Notes under the pieces: generated by a model | Seen by the model: only the letters and a program-made list of their open reading frames with translations | What the model was told of the DNA's origin: nothing | Database searches by the model: none | NCBI RefSeq assembly: GCF_019974155.1 | Contig: NZ_AP025158.1 | Coordinates: 1,364,001 to 1,428,000 of the forward strand | Source: Thermus thermophilus | GTDB taxonomy: Bacteria; Deinococcota; Deinococci; Deinococcales; Thermaceae | Length of the DNA stretch: 64,000 nucleotides | Direction of reading: 5' to 3' | Part shown: positions 3,605-16,225 of the stretch, piece after piece | How the letters are laid out: each line of letters opens with the position of its first letter | Position numbering within the stretch: the first letter of the stretch is position 1 | Program-made: the position numbers and the translations under genes

Positions 3605-4171
3605 TCAGGGGCCTTCCGCCTCCAGGAGGACCGCCTCAAAGACGTGCCGGCCCACCTGCTGGGCCACGCGCACCAGGCGCCCTCCCTCCACCTGGGCCAG
3701 GGAGAGGCCGGGGCGCAGGCGGTACTGCCGCCGCGCCTTCCCCTCCACCTCCACGTCGGGGAGGCGCTCCACGTAGACCCGGCCCCCGGGCATGGGGAAG
3801 CGGACCACCTCCCCGGGCTCGAGGACGAGGCCCGGGAGGGCAAGGAAGAGGGAGAGGGGGTCGTGGTAGGGGGCGAGGTAGGGGTAGGCCAGGCTCTCCT
3901 TCCCCTGGCTCACCAGGACCACGCCCTCCTCCTCCAGGCGCTCCACGGCGAAGACGCGGACCTCCTTCCCCTCCACCCGCTCCTGGAAGCGGAGGGAGAA
4001 GCCCTCCGCGTCCAACTCCGTCTGCCAGCGCTGGCGCCCGGGGGGCAAGGGGGGGAGGAACTCGGCCTGTAGGGTGGCCCGCACCCCCCCTTTGCGCCGC
4101 TCCACCTCGAGGCGGCCCTCCCCCACGGGCCGGCCGGCATAGTGGTAGGCGTAGCGGTAGACCTCCTTCAT
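3605..4171 (-). CDS. Conserved hypothetical protein, beta-rich
   Basis: 188 residues, no signal peptide or membrane segment. Regular alternation of charged and hydrophobic residues suggests an all-beta fold; the opening YRYAYHYAGRPVGEGRLEV is loosely reminiscent of DUF3108-type proteins, but I do not claim membership. It starts at the base after the stop of the kinase-like membrane protein (4172), so the two form a tight operon and probably work together. The last 50 bases before hisD's promoter follow its stop. Function unknown. Confidence 0.7.
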   Translation of the reverse strand: MKEVYRYAYHYAGRPVGEGRLEVERRKGGVRATLQAEFLPPLPPGRQRWQTELDAEGFSLRFQERVEGKEVRVFAVERLEEEGVVLVSQGKESLAYPYLAPYHDPLSLFLALPGLVLEPGEVVRFPMPGGRVYVERLPDVEVEGKARRQYRLRPGLSLAQVEGGRLVRVAQQVGRHVFEAVLLEAEGP

Positions 4172-5236
4172 CTAGCGCACCTTGATGGTGAGGGGCGGGC
4201 TTGGCACCTCCAGGAGGTAGTCCACGGGCTCCCGCCCCGGCACTTGGATGCGGAGCCGATACACCCCGGGGACGGGGAAGCGCACCCGCCCCGGGGCCTC
4301 GAGGAGGAGGCTCCCGGGCTCAAGCCCCGCCCCCTCGGGGGCCTCCAGGACGTAGACCAGGGCCTTCTCCGTGGGGGGGTCGGTGCGGAACTCCATGGGG
4401 TAGTCCCGCGCCGCCCCTCCCTGGGGCCGGAGGAGGCCCATGTAGGCCCCGGCCACCCCCAGGAGCAAAAGGAGGAAGAGGACGGGGCCCACCGCCCGCC
4501 GCCCTCCCCTCGAGGGCCGGGGCTCCACCACGGGAAAGGGCGGGTCTTCGGGCTCCTCAATGCGGATGACCCGGGGGCGGCTCGGCGTGGGCTCCTCCAG
4601 GGGCGGCCCGGGGGAAGCGGGCGCGGAGGCCTCCGCCGCCCCCACCTCCACGGGAAGCCGCCTGGCCTCGGCCTCCTTCTCCTTGGCCGCCTCGGGAGCG
4701 GAAGCCTCCTCCGGTGGAGGCTCCCAGAGGGCCTCCAGCCCCACCTCCCCCCGCGCGAGGCGCGCGAGGACGTCCCGCAAGGGGAACTCCTCCCACCTGG
4801 GGCCGGCGAGGAGGCGGGCAAGCTCCAAGAGGGCGGAAGGGGCCTCCCCCGTAAGGGCCTCGAGCCCCGGCCCCACGAGCCAGACGCTCCGCCCCTTCAC
4901 CAGGACGAGCTCGGCCCGGGGGGCGTAGCGGATGCCCTGGGCCTCAAGCGCGGCGAGGCGCTTGGCGATCTCCCGCACCCAGTGGGCGAGGCGGTCGGGG
5001 TCCGCCACGCCCGCGTACTGGCTCAAGGGAACGGCCCCCAGGGGCCATTCCAGGACGAGGGCGTCCTCGAGGCGGTCCAGGACCTTGAGGCTCCCCTCCG
5101 CCTCCACGGGCTCGCCCTTCGCCCCCGCGAGGACCATCACCGGCATCCCGGTCCGGGTGTCCTGGCCCTCGTAAACGGTCATGGAGGCGAGGCGGGCCAA
5201 GGCCCGCCTTAGCCAGTAGGACCCGAGAAGCTCCAT
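4172..5236 (-). CDS. Degenerate protein-kinase-like membrane protein
   Basis: About 354 residues. The opening MELLGSYWLRRALARLASMT then VYEGQD mimics the glycine-rich entry of bacterial Ser/Thr kinases (typically LGRYRLLRPLGRGGMATVYEA), but no HRD, DFG or lysine motif is obvious and the kinase-like part is short (about 170 residues). A Pro/Glu-rich linker follows (about 180-245), then one transmembrane helix (AVGPVLFLLLLLGVAGAYMG, about 256-275) and a beta-rich extracytoplasmic tail. I read it as a pseudokinase with an external PEGA-like sensor domain. The ATG at 5236 is preferred over the upstream GTG (5254) because TATACT ends seven bases before it. Operon partner: the 188-residue protein. 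Confidence 0.65.
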   Translation of the reverse strand: MELLGSYWLRRALARLASMTVYEGQDTRTGMPVMVLAGAKGEPVEAEGSLKVLDRLEDALVLEWPLGAVPLSQYAGVADPDRLAHWVREIAKRLAALEAQGIRYAPRAELVLVKGRSVWLVGPGLEALTGEAPSALLELARLLAGPRWEEFPLRDVLARLARGEVGLEALWEPPPEEASAPEAAKEKEAEARRLPVEVGAAEASAPASPGPPLEEPTPSRPRVIRIEEPEDPPFPVVEPRPSRGGRRAVGPVLFLLLLLGVAGAYMGLLRPQGGAARDYPMEFRTDPPTEKALVYVLEAPEGAGLEPGSLLLEAPGRVRFPVPGVYRLRIQVPGREPVDYLLEVPSPPLTIKVR

Positions 5237-5254
5237 CCCTCCAAGTATACGCAC

Positions 5255-5315
5255 CCCCCATGAAGGGATTTATAATCGGGGCAAGGCCGGGTCCCAGGAC
5301 CCGAAAGGAGGGGGC
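5255..5315. promoter_or_regulatory. Divergent promoter region
   Basis: On the minus strand TATACT (5244-5249) sits just before the kinase-like gene. On the plus strand a consensus TATAAT lies at 5271-5276, followed by a small hairpin (CGGGTCC/GGACCCG, about 5288-5304) and the ribosome site AAAGGAGGGGG before the ATG at 5316. No convincing -35 box was seen for either. Confidence 0.55.
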
Positions 5316-5684
5316 ATGGAGTTCAAGGTGACGCTCACCACGGAAGAGATCGTTCGCGGGCTCAAGCACTACCGCCGCATCGCCAAACAGGACGTGTTGC
5401 GGGCGCCGGAAACTCCCAACCCCGAGGTCTTCCGCCGCCACGCCGAGGCCCGGCGCGAGGTCTACGCCAAGCTGGCCGAGGTGGCGGAGCGCGAGGGCCC
5501 GGAGGCCGCCGTGGCCTACGCTTTGGAACTCTACCGCTCCCTGCCCTTCGTCACCGGGACGCCCGAGGACCAGTACCCCGAGATCAAGGGCCAGGAAAAC
5601 GCCCTGGAGAACTTCTTCCTGATGATCGGCCTGGACCCCAAGGTCCGCCGCGAAGCCCGCAAGGCCCGCAAGCCCTTGCAATGA
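5316..5684 (+). CDS. Small conserved hypothetical protein coupled to uracil-DNA glycosylase
   Basis: 122 residues, acidic/basic and mostly helical by composition, with no membrane segment or cysteine. I do not recognise the family. It has a strong ribosome site (AAAGGAGG) and a plus-strand TATAAT about 40 bases upstream. Its stop TGA overlaps the ATG of the uracil-DNA glycosylase gene in an ATGA arrangement, so the two are translated in a fixed ratio, which suggests but does not prove a shared role in DNA repair. Confidence 0.75.
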   Translation: MEFKVTLTTEEIVRGLKHYRRIAKQDVLRAPETPNPEVFRRHAEARREVYAKLAEVAEREGPEAAVAYALELYRSLPFVTGTPEDQYPEIKGQENALENFFLMIGLDPKVRREARKARKPLQ

Positions 5685-6298
5685 CCCTGGAACTCCTTCA
5701 GGCCCAGGCGCAAAACTGCACCGCCTGCCGCCTGGCGGAGGGCCGAACCCGGGTGGTCTTCGGGGAGGGAAACCCGGACGCAAAGCTCATGATCGTGGGG
5801 GAAGGCCCCGGGGAGGAGGAGGACAAGACGGGCCGCCCCTTCGTGGGCAAGGCGGGGCAGCTGCTAAACCGCATCCTGGAGGCGGCGGGGATTTCCAGGG
5901 AGGAGGTCTACATCACCAACATCGTCAAGTGCCGCCCCCCGCAAAACCGCGCCCCCCTTCCCGACGAGGCCAAGATCTGCACGGACAAGTGGCTCCTCAA
6001 GCAGATTGAGCTCATCGCCCCCCAGATCATCGTCCCCTTGGGGGCGGTGGCCGCCGAGTTCTTCCTGGGGGAGAAGGTCTCCATCACCAAGGTGCGGGGG
6101 AAGTGGTACGAGTGGCACGGGATCAAGGTCTTCCCCATGTTCCACCCCGCCTACCTCCTCAGGAACCCGAGCCGGGCCCCGGGAAGCCCCAAGCACCTCA
6201 CCTGGCTGGACATCCAAGAGGTCAAGCGGGCCCTGGACGCCCTCCCTCCCAAGGAAAGGCGCCCGGTAAAGGCGGTGAGCCAGGAGCCCCTCTTCTAA
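5681..6298 (+). CDS. udg: Family 4 uracil-DNA glycosylase, 4Fe-4S type
   Basis: Removes uracil from DNA in base-excision repair, important at high temperature where cytosine deaminates quickly. 205 residues. Four cysteines expected to hold the 4Fe-4S cluster are at 13, 16, 84 and 100 (NCTAC, VKCRPP, KICTD). The active-site motif GEGPGEEED is at 40-48 and the uracil-pocket/DNA motif HPAYLL at 155-160. The protein matches the well-studied T. thermophilus enzyme closely. The start overlaps the preceding gene's stop; a hairpin follows at about 6330-6347. Confidence 0.97.
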
Positions 6299-6329
6299 GG
6301 GCTGGGTCGCGCAACGCGGGACGCCCAAG

Positions 6330-6347
6330 CCTCCCGCCCACGGGAGG
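6330..6347 (+). terminator. Hairpin downstream of udg
   Basis: CCTCCCG, loop CCCA, CGGGAGG: a seven-base-pair stem 31 bases after the glycosylase stop. There is no T-run, so it may be a transcript-end stabiliser rather than a classical intrinsic terminator. The rest of 6299-6395 holds nothing else that I recognise. Confidence 0.4.
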
Positions 6348-6395
6348 TCCTAAGTGGCTGCACGTTGATTTCGCAACATGGGTCGCCCGAAATAA

Positions 6396-6450
6396 GGCTT
6401 GGGAAGGTCCTTTTGGGGCCCCCACCGCGGCTTTCGCCGCGGTGGGGTAC
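6396..6450 (+). repeat. Palindromic intergenic repeat, copy 1
   Basis: Shares GGCTTGGGAAG, then a GTCCTTTTGGGGC box, then a 12-bp stem (CCCCACCGCGGC with GCCGCGGTGGGG, loop TTTC) and a trailing TACTTA with the copy near 16.13 kb. Related copies lie near 16.24, 20.44 and 36.58 kb, always between genes. This copy lies directly before the probable riboswitch of modA, and the bases after it (TAAGAT, 6455-6460) could act as a -10 box. Confidence 0.75.
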
Positions 6451-6462
6451 TTAGTAAGATGG

Positions 6463-6569
6463 CCTTGCCTCCGAGCCCGGGTAGACCCCCTGGGCCTTCC
6501 GGGCCGGGCCCACGGGCCCCGGGGTGGCGGGGGCAACCCCGCCGCCTGCCGCGGTCGCAAAGGAGGTGC
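6463..6569 (+). ncRNA. Probable molybdenum-cofactor (Moco-type) riboswitch
   Basis: The modA leader begins GCCTTGCCTCCGAGCCCGGG and ends CCGCCTGCCGCGGTCGCAAA followed by GGAGG, features I associate with the Moco RNA motif. CCTCC (6468-6472) can pair with the ribosome site GGAGG (6562-6566), extended by two wobble pairs, forming a basal P1 that would hide the ribosome site when folded; the middle contains further GC stems. Position upstream of a molybdate transporter fits. The identification rests on remembered consensus pieces and pairing logic; a covariance-model search was not possible. Confidence 0.6.
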
Positions 6570-6571
6570 GC

Positions 6572-7444
6572 ATGGGAAGACGCTTGGTGGCCCTTCTTCT
6601 CCTCTTCCTCCCCGGTTTCGCCCAGAAGGTGGTGCGGGTGGTGGCGGCCTCGGACCTCCAGTACGCCCTCCCCGAGGTCGCCCGGGCCTTTGAAGGGAAA
6701 AACCCCGGGGTGAGGGTGGAGCTCGTCTTCGGCTCCTCCGGCAAGCTCTACGCCCAGCTCACCCAGGGCCTCGAGGCCGACCTCTTCTTCTCCGCCGACA
6801 AGGTCTACCCCGAGCTTTTGGAGCGGAAAGGCCTCGCCGAGCCCGGCACGCGGAGGCCCTACGCCCTCGGGCGGGTGGTCCTCTGGGTGGACCGGAAGCT
6901 CGGCCTCAAGCCCGGCCCCGAGGCCCTGAAGGACCCGAGGGTGACCCAGCTCGCCCTCGCCAACCCCGTGCACGCCCCCTACGGCCGGGCCGCCGTCACC
7001 CTCCTGGAGCACCTGGGGCTTTTGCGGCGCAAGGACGTCCCCCTCCCCGGCCTGGCCAAGCCCTTCCCCCTCCTCTCCTGGGAGGAGATCCCCTGGGAAA
7101 GGCTCACGGGAGGGGTGGAGGCCTACTGGGACGCCGCGCCCTTGCGCCAAGGGAAGCCCCGCTTCGCCTTCGTCTACGGGGAGAACATCTCCCAGACGGC
7201 CCAGCTCGCCCTCGCCGCCACCCGGGTGGGCCTCCTCGCCCTCTCCCTGGCGGTCCACGAAAGCCTCTCCGGGGCGGGAGCGTACTGGCTCGCCCCCCTC
7301 GGGAGCCACCTCCCCCTGGAGCAGGACTACCTCGTCCTCAAGGGGCGCGGCCGCCCTGAGGTCCTGGCCTTTTACGCCTACGTGGGAAGCCCCGAGGCCC
7401 GGGCCGTCTTCCGGCGCTACGGCTTCCTCCTTCCCGGGGAATGA
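6572..7444 (+). CDS. modA: Molybdate/tungstate ABC transporter, substrate-binding protein
   Basis: Exported oxyanion-binding protein. From the ATG at 6572 it opens MGRRLVALLLLFLPGFAQ, a signal peptide ending near residue 18, then the type II binding fold with VVAASDLQYALPEVARAF and FGSSGKLYAQL, the serine-containing oxyanion loops of ModA. About 290 residues, slightly longer than typical. The ribosome site AAAGGAGG is five bases before the ATG and lies in the putative riboswitch P1 stem, so a longer start upstream is unlikely. The stop overlaps modB (ATGA). Confidence 0.88.
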   Translation: MGRRLVALLLLFLPGFAQKVVRVVAASDLQYALPEVARAFEGKNPGVRVELVFGSSGKLYAQLTQGLEADLFFSADKVYPELLERKGLAEPGTRRPYALGRVVLWVDRKLGLKPGPEALKDPRVTQLALANPVHAPYGRAAVTLLEHLGLLRRKDVPLPGLAKPFPLLSWEEIPWERLTGGVEAYWDAAPLRQGKPRFAFVYGENISQTAQLALAATRVGLLALSLAVHESLSGAGAYWLAPLGSHLPLEQDYLVLKGRGRPEVLAFYAYVGSPEARAVFRRYGFLLPGE

Positions 7445-8118
7445 TGGACCCCCTCTTCTGGGACGCCCTCTTCCTCTCCCTCCGGGTGGCCGCCCTGGCC
7501 TCGGGGATCCTCCTCCTCGCGGGCGCGCCCCTCGCCTGGCTCCTCGCCTTCCGCCGCTTCCCGGGGAAGGCCTTGCTGGAAGCGGTCTTCCTCCTCCCCC
7601 TGGTCCTCCCCCCCACGGTCCTGGGGTTCTACCTCCTCCTCTTCCTGGGGCCCGAGGGACCGTGGGCGAGGCTTTTCGGCGTGTCCTGGGCCTTCCGCTT
7701 TGAGGGCCTGGTCCTCGCCAGCGTCCTCTTCAGCCTCCCCTTTGCCCTCAACGCCTACCGGGAGGCCTTCCTGGCCCTGGACCCGAACCTCCTGGAGGTG
7801 GCCCGCACCCTGGGGGTCCCCCGTTACCGGATCCTCGCCCGGGTGGTCCTCCCCCTGGTCTGGCCCGGCCTCCTCTCCGGCACCCTCCTCGCCTTCGCCC
7901 ACACCCTGGGGGAGTTCGGGGTGGTCCTGATGGTGGGGGGCTCCATCCCGGGGAAGACCCAGATGGTGAGCATCTACCTCTACGACCTGGTCCAGGCGCT
8001 GCGCTTCGCCGAGGCGGCCCAGGCGAGCCTGGTCCTCCTCGGCCTAAGCCTCTTCCTCCTCGCCCTGGTGCGGACCCTGGAAGGGAGGTGGCGCTCCTGG
8101 AGGTCCACTACCGGCTGA
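7441..8118 (+). CDS. modB: Molybdate ABC transporter, permease
   Basis: 225-residue inner-membrane subunit with about five to six hydrophobic helices. The cytoplasmic coupling loop is visible around residues 118-135 (EVARTLGVPRYRILARVVLP), followed by the family signature LGEFGVVLMVGGSIPGKTQ near 158-178, characteristic of ModB. It overlaps modA by four bases upstream and modC by 31 bases downstream, so all three are coupled. Confidence 0.92.
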   Translation: MMDPLFWDALFLSLRVAALASGILLLAGAPLAWLLAFRRFPGKALLEAVFLLPLVLPPTVLGFYLLLFLGPEGPWARLFGVSWAFRFEGLVLASVLFSLPFALNAYREAFLALDPNLLEVARTLGVPRYRILARVVLPLVWPGLLSGTLLAFAHTLGEFGVVLMVGGSIPGKTQMVSIYLYDLVQALRFAEAAQASLVLLGLSLFLLALVRTLEGRWRSWRSTTG

Positions 8119-9107
8119 ACCGGCCCGTTCGCCTCGAGGCCCGCTTCCGGGTGCGGGGCTTCACCGTGCTCCTAGGGCGAAGCGGGGCGGGCAAGACCAG
8201 CCTCCTCAAGGCCCTGGCGGGCCTCCTCCCCGCAGAGGGCACCCCCTTCGGCGGCCTTCCCCCGGAAAGGCGCCCCGTGGGCTACCTGCCCCAGGACCTC
8301 GCCCTCTTCCCCCACATGACCGCCTGGGAGAACGTGGCCTTCCCCCTCAAGGGCAGGGACCGCAAAGCGAGGGCCCTCGCCCTCCTCGCGCGGGTGGGCC
8401 TTTTGGAAGAGGCCCACAAGCGGCCGGGGGAGCTTTCCGGGGGGCAGCGGCAGCGGGTGGCCCTGGCCCGGGCCCTGGCGCGAAAGCCCGAACTCCTCCT
8501 CCTGGACGAGCCCACGAGCGCCCTGGACCCCCTGACCAAGCACCAGGTCCTGGCGGAGCTCGCCGCCCTCATCCGCCGGGAGGGCCTGCCCACCCTGGCG
8601 GTGAGCCACGACCCGGAGCTCGCGGGCCTGGCCGACTGGCTCGTGGTCCTCGAGGGGGGCCGGATCCTCCAGGAAGGCCCCCCGGAGGAGGTCCTCGCCG
8701 CCCCGCGCACGGCGAGCGCGGCGCGGCTTCTGGGCTTTGAGAACCTCTTCCCCGCCCGGGTGGTGGAGGGCGGGGTGGAGGCGGAAGGCGTCCGCCTCCA
8801 CCTTCCCCTCCCCCCCTGGGCCCGGCCGGGAGGACGGGTCTACGTGGGGGTGCGGGCGGCCGAGGTCATCGTGGTGCGGGAGGACCGCCCCCCACCCCCG
8901 GAAAACGTCCTGGAAGGCCTACTGGAAAGCCTCTACCCCCAGGGCCTGGCCTACCGGGGGCGCTTCCAGGGCCCCCTCGCCCTCACCCTCCTCCTCCCCC
9001 GGCACGTGCAGGCCAGGCTCCACCTCGCGCCCGGGAGGCGGATCAAGGTGGTCCTGAAGCCCCGCTACCTGCACCTGATGCCGGGCGAGGCGGAGGAGGG
9101 CTTCTAG
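8088..9107 (+). CDS. modC: Molybdate ABC transporter, ATP-binding protein
   Basis: 339 residues. Walker A GRSGAGKTS near 28-36, signature LSGGQRQRVALARAL near 112-126, Walker B LLLLDEPTSALD near 134-145, switch His in VSHD near 172. The C-terminal third (from VYVGVRAAEVIVV) is the MOP/TOBE-like regulatory domain. The GTG start lies inside modB with GGGAGG overlapping the start codon, so expression probably depends on modB translation. Its last 189 bases are also read on the other strand by the regulator-like ORF. Confidence 0.92.
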   Translation: MALLEVHYRLNRPVRLEARFRVRGFTVLLGRSGAGKTSLLKALAGLLPAEGTPFGGLPPERRPVGYLPQDLALFPHMTAWENVAFPLKGRDRKARALALLARVGLLEEAHKRPGELSGGQRQRVALARALARKPELLLLDEPTSALDPLTKHQVLAELAALIRREGLPTLAVSHDPELAGLADWLVVLEGGRILQEGPPEEVLAAPRTASAARLLGFENLFPARVVEGGVEAEGVRLHLPLPPWARPGGRVYVGVRAAEVIVVREDRPPPPENVLEGLLESLYPQGLAYRGRFQGPLALTLLLPRHVQARLHLAPGRRIKVVLKPRYLHLMPGEAEEGF

Positions 9108-16116: not shown

Positions 16117-16130
16117 GCCCACGCTTTCAG

Positions 16131-16184
16131 GCTTGGGAAGTCCCTTTTGGGGCCCCCACCGCGGCCTTCGCCGCGGTGGGGTAC
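16131..16184 (+). repeat. Palindromic intergenic repeat, copy 2
   Basis: GGCTTGGGAAG, the TCCCTTTTGGGGC box, and the same 12-bp stem as copy 1 (CCCCACCGCGGC / GCCGCGGTGGGG) with loop CTTC, followed by TACTCA. It sits in the convergent gap between asnS and pdxT and may terminate both transcripts. Confidence 0.75.
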
Positions 16185-16225
16185 TCACACCCCTTCTCCC
16201 TGTTTCCTTCGCTTGGCTGACCCGG

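Follow-up and report, generated by a model that had tools for sequence, protein, structure and literature searches.

The window analysed here, a 64,000-nucleotide stretch of Thermus thermophilus DNA, raises the question of how molybdate import is controlled, since a sequence-only reading had proposed that a Moco riboswitch in the modA leader hides the only ribosome site of that gene. An Rfam 15 scan of the whole window returned three matches above the curated cut-offs, among them RF01055 (Moco/Tuco riboswitch) at 6457-6581 (+), which scored 45.8 bits (E 9.7e-8; both strands searched) against a curated gathering cut-off of 36 bits, the threshold also used for other genomes. The alignment is full length (model positions 1-135), is the sole RF01055 match in the 2.17-Mb T. 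thermophilus genome, and bears out the Moco RNA motif of that reading, whose range of 6463-6572 falls short of the model span by only a few bases. As is a trait of the class, the RNA lies upstream of molybdate transport genes: modA (6572-7444, +; molybdate-binding protein, TIGR01256, 131 bits, cut-off 62.5), modB (7441-8118, +; molybdate permease, TIGR02141, 221 bits, cut-off 182.6), which overlaps the modA stop through ATGA, and a modC-like ABC ATPase gene (8088-9107, +; PF00005), which overlaps the end of modB, scores below the TIGR02142 curated cut-off and is named by position. Because these reading frames overlap, translation of modA probably governs all three genes; the gene upstream of the leader encodes a family-4 uracil-DNA glycosylase. 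The modABC leader is very probably a Moco riboswitch of the type that holds the ribosome site in P1 and works as a translational OFF switch, and by analogy with the family the Thermus copies would bind the ligand and switch.

The aptamer, from P1 to P1, occupies 6467-6567 (+), as delimited by the RF01055 match, conservation and covariation. In the Rfam alignment and in 25 distinct Thermaceae leaders, which were brought into a structure alignment with explicit pair counting, P1, P2, P3 and P4 surround a conserved junction, CUCCGAG ... AAAGGAG, whose sequences do not change across the genus Thermus. The 5' strand of P1, GCCUCC (6467-6472, +), is an anti-Shine-Dalgarno sequence, whereas the 3' strand, GGAGGU (6562-6567, +), is the modA Shine-Dalgarno sequence (SD) itself; CCUCC (CCTCC at 6468-6472) and GGAGG (6562-6566, within AAGGAGGT at 6560-6567) are both invariant in the aligned Thermaceae leaders, and the modA ATG at 6572 follows 5 nt past GGAGG. 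The proposed pairing of the first CCTCC with the modA ribosome site is thus upheld, as the RF01055 alignment pairs the two as P1, with 6562-6566 included, and by alignment and pair counts it is conserved ahead of modA in other Thermus. Within Thermaceae, P1 varies at its outermost pair only and so carries no covariation signal there. Among order-level relatives, compensatory changes are seen in one P1 pair of L027 (U-A to C-G) and in another of L028 and L029 (C-G to G-U).

The remaining helices are supported by compensatory changes in the aligned sequences. P2 (6475-6504, +) forms an almost uninterrupted helix in which a single base is bulged and usually one A.C mismatch occurs, and covaries at columns 19/40, 21/38 and 23/37; the 5-bp P3 (6506-6519, +) is paired in 100% of cells, with two-sided changes in 2 pairs; and the P4 hairpin (6522-6547, +), which is closed by a GCAA tetraloop at 6533-6536, is paired in 99% of cells, with two-sided changes in 3 pairs. 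Across P2-P4, 96.9% of cells were paired in the model against 37-57% when it was slid, and two-sided changes fell in 8 pairs and 17 cells, compared with 3.3 and 3.7 in shuffles and with 2-4 pairs and 3-6 cells in the slid controls. The 2-bp P5 (6548-6558, +), taken from the Rfam alignment, is invariant and so carries no covariation signal.

These features allow the construction of a model for molybdate uptake. Transcription would begin where P1 does, to within one or two bases, and molybdenum cofactor, when plentiful, would bind the P2-P3-P4 junction and stabilise P1, as family homology suggests. P1 would then sequester the GGAGG of the modA SD against CCUCC, a pairing seen in the sequence and conserved, upon which translation of modA, and by coupling that of modB and modC, would drop and less molybdate would be imported; in the cofactor-free state, P1 would be marginal at growth temperature and ribosomes could load. 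By homology with E. coli moaA (PMC2408646), the leader is best read as feedback from the end product, Moco, on molybdate import. The predicted energetics are compatible with ligand-dependent closure but do not prove switching: the P1 duplex weakens from -9.0 kcal/mol at 37 C to -4.1 kcal/mol at 70 C (ViennaRNA), ligand-free P1 is a minor state, competing pairings vary among species, and the folding predictions give no clean two-state switch, with the SD mostly buried at 37 C regardless of P1. It may be asked whether the leader is instead a decayed or constitutive aptamer, retained mainly as mRNA structure, whose SD is opened by the heat of growth temperature, with no switching. The median predicted SD opening is indeed higher at 70 C (0.28) than at 37 C (0.06), and the RNA has been lost from related species that keep modA. 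However, an invariant junction and covarying helices are not required for simple heat opening, and the Rfam score exceeds the cut-off in every copy, which makes this explanation very unlikely.

Returning to the Moco-responsive translational switch, such a platform is expected because the SD makes up the 3' strand of P1 and the + strand has no nearby terminator, as no intrinsic terminator was found on that strand between 6200 and 6700. Control of transcription, whereby the aptamer would work via a terminator or the promoter and an inserted repeat would dominate, draws on a hairpin-bearing 105-bp repeat that stands in for the -35 region of modA. However, the + strand holds no terminator-like site between aptamer and modA, the identity of the 3' strand of P1 with the SD leaves no room for one, and the repeat is missing from other riboswitch-bearing leaders, such as L021 and L023; this alternative appears very improbable. 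The repeat itself (the copy at 6350-6454) is MITE-like and dispersed, with an internal GC-rich hairpin, sharp boundaries, the ends CTAAGT...ACTTAG and about 50 matches in the T. thermophilus genome; no target duplication was obvious in the listed flanks, and no description of it was found in the literature searched. Many matches also occur in G027, G028, G032, G041 and G043, and a partial copy lies at about 16129-16185 of the window. In the modA leader, the repeat ends directly at the putative -10 box, TAAGAT (6455-6460, +), and replaces the -35 region, which accounts for a sigma-70 consensus scan having found no promoter. The -10 box is proposed from its cross-species spacing to P1: every one of the 26 Thermaceae loci has a TAnnnT hexamer whose end lies 6 nt (14 loci) or 7 nt (12 loci) upstream of P1, whereas 500 shuffles gave this spacing in a mean of 0.3 loci and a maximum of 2, and a perfect TTGACA lies 18 nt upstream in seven of the 26. 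Given the position of this box and the standard distance from -10 to start, the mRNA probably begins at P1: the predicted start, at about 6467, coincides with the opening base of P1 or with its 5' neighbour. Some 50-100 nt upstream of P1, the motif TGCAAACTTATGCA is common to L009, L022, L057 and others; it lies ahead of the modA promoter in several species and is possibly an operator.

With regard to distribution, RF01055 RNAs are present in 23 of 27 Thermus genomes, in one or two copies each, and in 23 of the 26 that have an orthologous modA (G036 has a distant modA relative only). One genome of a Thermaceae sister genus also has the RNA, and no match was found, at the same threshold, in genomes of the Thermaceae genera g2-g4, which thus provide a fair negative control for chance matches in GC-rich DNA; in the rest of the phylum only three more genomes carry it, all from one other family of the same order. 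Within Thermaceae, 24 of 26 copies lie upstream of modA and the remaining two upstream of a different transporter. No RF01055 score was obtained for the modA leaders of G035, G041 and G042: the first is short and has no aptamer, and in the second modA follows one copy of the 105-bp element and a leader that is unrelated. In the G042 leader (L046), P3 and the junction sequence are gone, but the CCUCC/GGAGG pairing and a hairpin resembling P2 persist. The riboswitch is thus not essential, as three Thermus with orthologous modA have lost or degraded it, and these natural losses are ready comparisons. The genus offers a set of Moco riboswitches with a simple anatomy, in which an aptamer at the 5' end and an SD within P1 precede a transporter operon. 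Moco is unstable in vitro, and robust thermophile RNAs may aid structural work on this class, with its difficult ligand.

The remaining regulatory context is sparse. No ModE-family match was found in the T. thermophilus genome at E 0.001, so that ModE was rejected as an alternative regulator here, and nine other Thermus gave only matches below the cut-off. As the moaA present in the genome has no riboswitch, no Moco-type regulator other than the modABC leader was found, which points to end-product control of Thermus molybdate uptake without ModE.

How far this departs from known systems can be judged against the original description of the class. Regulski et al. (2008; PMC2408646) report the class in Deinococcus-Thermus, note that some bacteria have it ahead of modABC and describe ribosome sites inside P1, so that, on the points given there, the novelty is low. 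The suggestion that Thermus examples are little discussed is fair, but the original 2008 paper names Deinococcus-Thermus. No study devoted to the Thermus modA leader turned up in the literature searches. The E. coli moaABCDE leader likewise has P1-P5 with P3, the conserved junction and a ribosome site in the 3' strand of P1; as moaA there is repressed by Moco (PMC2408646), the same OFF logic is expected for the Thermus leader. However, the Thermus leader controls modABC rather than moa, its mRNA probably starts at P1, unlike that of E. coli, and it combines a GCAA loop with a P2 in which the canonical 11-nt GAAA receptor is absent, where E. coli has GAAA with that receptor. The class is generally described as having a GNRA P4 loop, usually GAAA, with a tetraloop receptor in P2. 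In Thermaceae the loop is GCAA in 21 of 25 leaders and GUAA, GUGA or GCGA in the others, all GNRA; L009 has a GUGA loop, no bulged P2 base and a paired mismatch position, and the order-level relatives L027, L028 and L029 have GAAA. The missing receptor is not a defining failure, because the four GCAA-loop Moco RNAs in the 2008 account (PMC2408646) all share this exception, although, compared with those four, the Thermus pattern is genus-wide and P2 is a near-continuous helix. The T. thermophilus leader represents no new kind of RNA but a well-supported class member, with a structural variation that spans the genus.

It could be argued that the same RNA responds to Tuco instead of Moco, or makes no distinction between the two, in which case ModABC would supply tungstate as well. 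Three genes of the AOR family (PF01314), which includes classic tungsten enzymes, are found in the T. thermophilus genome and in most other Thermus, and in both G030 and G048 the second riboswitch copy adjoins an AOR-family gene. Not every AOR-family protein is a tungsten enzyme, and the genome also encodes several PF00384 molybdopterin-oxidoreductase proteins. Further, Tuco-type RF01055 RNAs share the core and family model but lack P3, whereas the covarying 5-bp P3 is present here (6506-6519) and in all aligned Thermaceae copies; in the published survey (PMC2408646) P3 goes only with Moco genes, and by this correlation the Thermus RNAs are of the Moco rather than the Tuco type. Given the P3 stem and the PF00384 proteins, the AOR genes do not prove that Tuco is sensed, and a Tuco-responsive or indiscriminate RNA is unlikely. 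At the AOR locus L117 of T. thermophilus (3963-6356, -), the gene after the AOR-family gene looks by eye to encode a small MoaD/ThiS-like protein, an arrangement shared with G030.

The second copy in G030 (L025, L030) precedes an operon of Peripla_BP_2, FecCD, ABC ATPase, methyltransferase-like and, at its end, TauE genes, and that in G048 (L013, L031) lies directly before a TauE-family permease gene. The TauE protein is found only in these two among 49 genomes of relatives (E 1e-30). A wider link between TauE permeases and Moco riboswitches was not borne out: 20 related loci from other genomes gave no RF01055 match, and so far the link is confined to two Thermus. A role of these second-copy genes in Mo or W transport is a guess. 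It is possible, though doubtful, that the Thermus RNAs form a sub-type in which the GCAA loop docks on a near-continuous P2 instead of using the GAAA/11-nt-receptor pair, the aptamer lies at +1, and the second copies of the two species control unrecognised Mo/W transport, by a FecCD-type ABC importer and/or a permease of the TauE family, with a link to an AOR-family gene. Elsewhere in the window, Rfam matches mark a tmRNA (RF00023, 21793-22141, -; 170.7 bits) and a TPP riboswitch (RF00059, 42629-42738, -; 78.4 bits).
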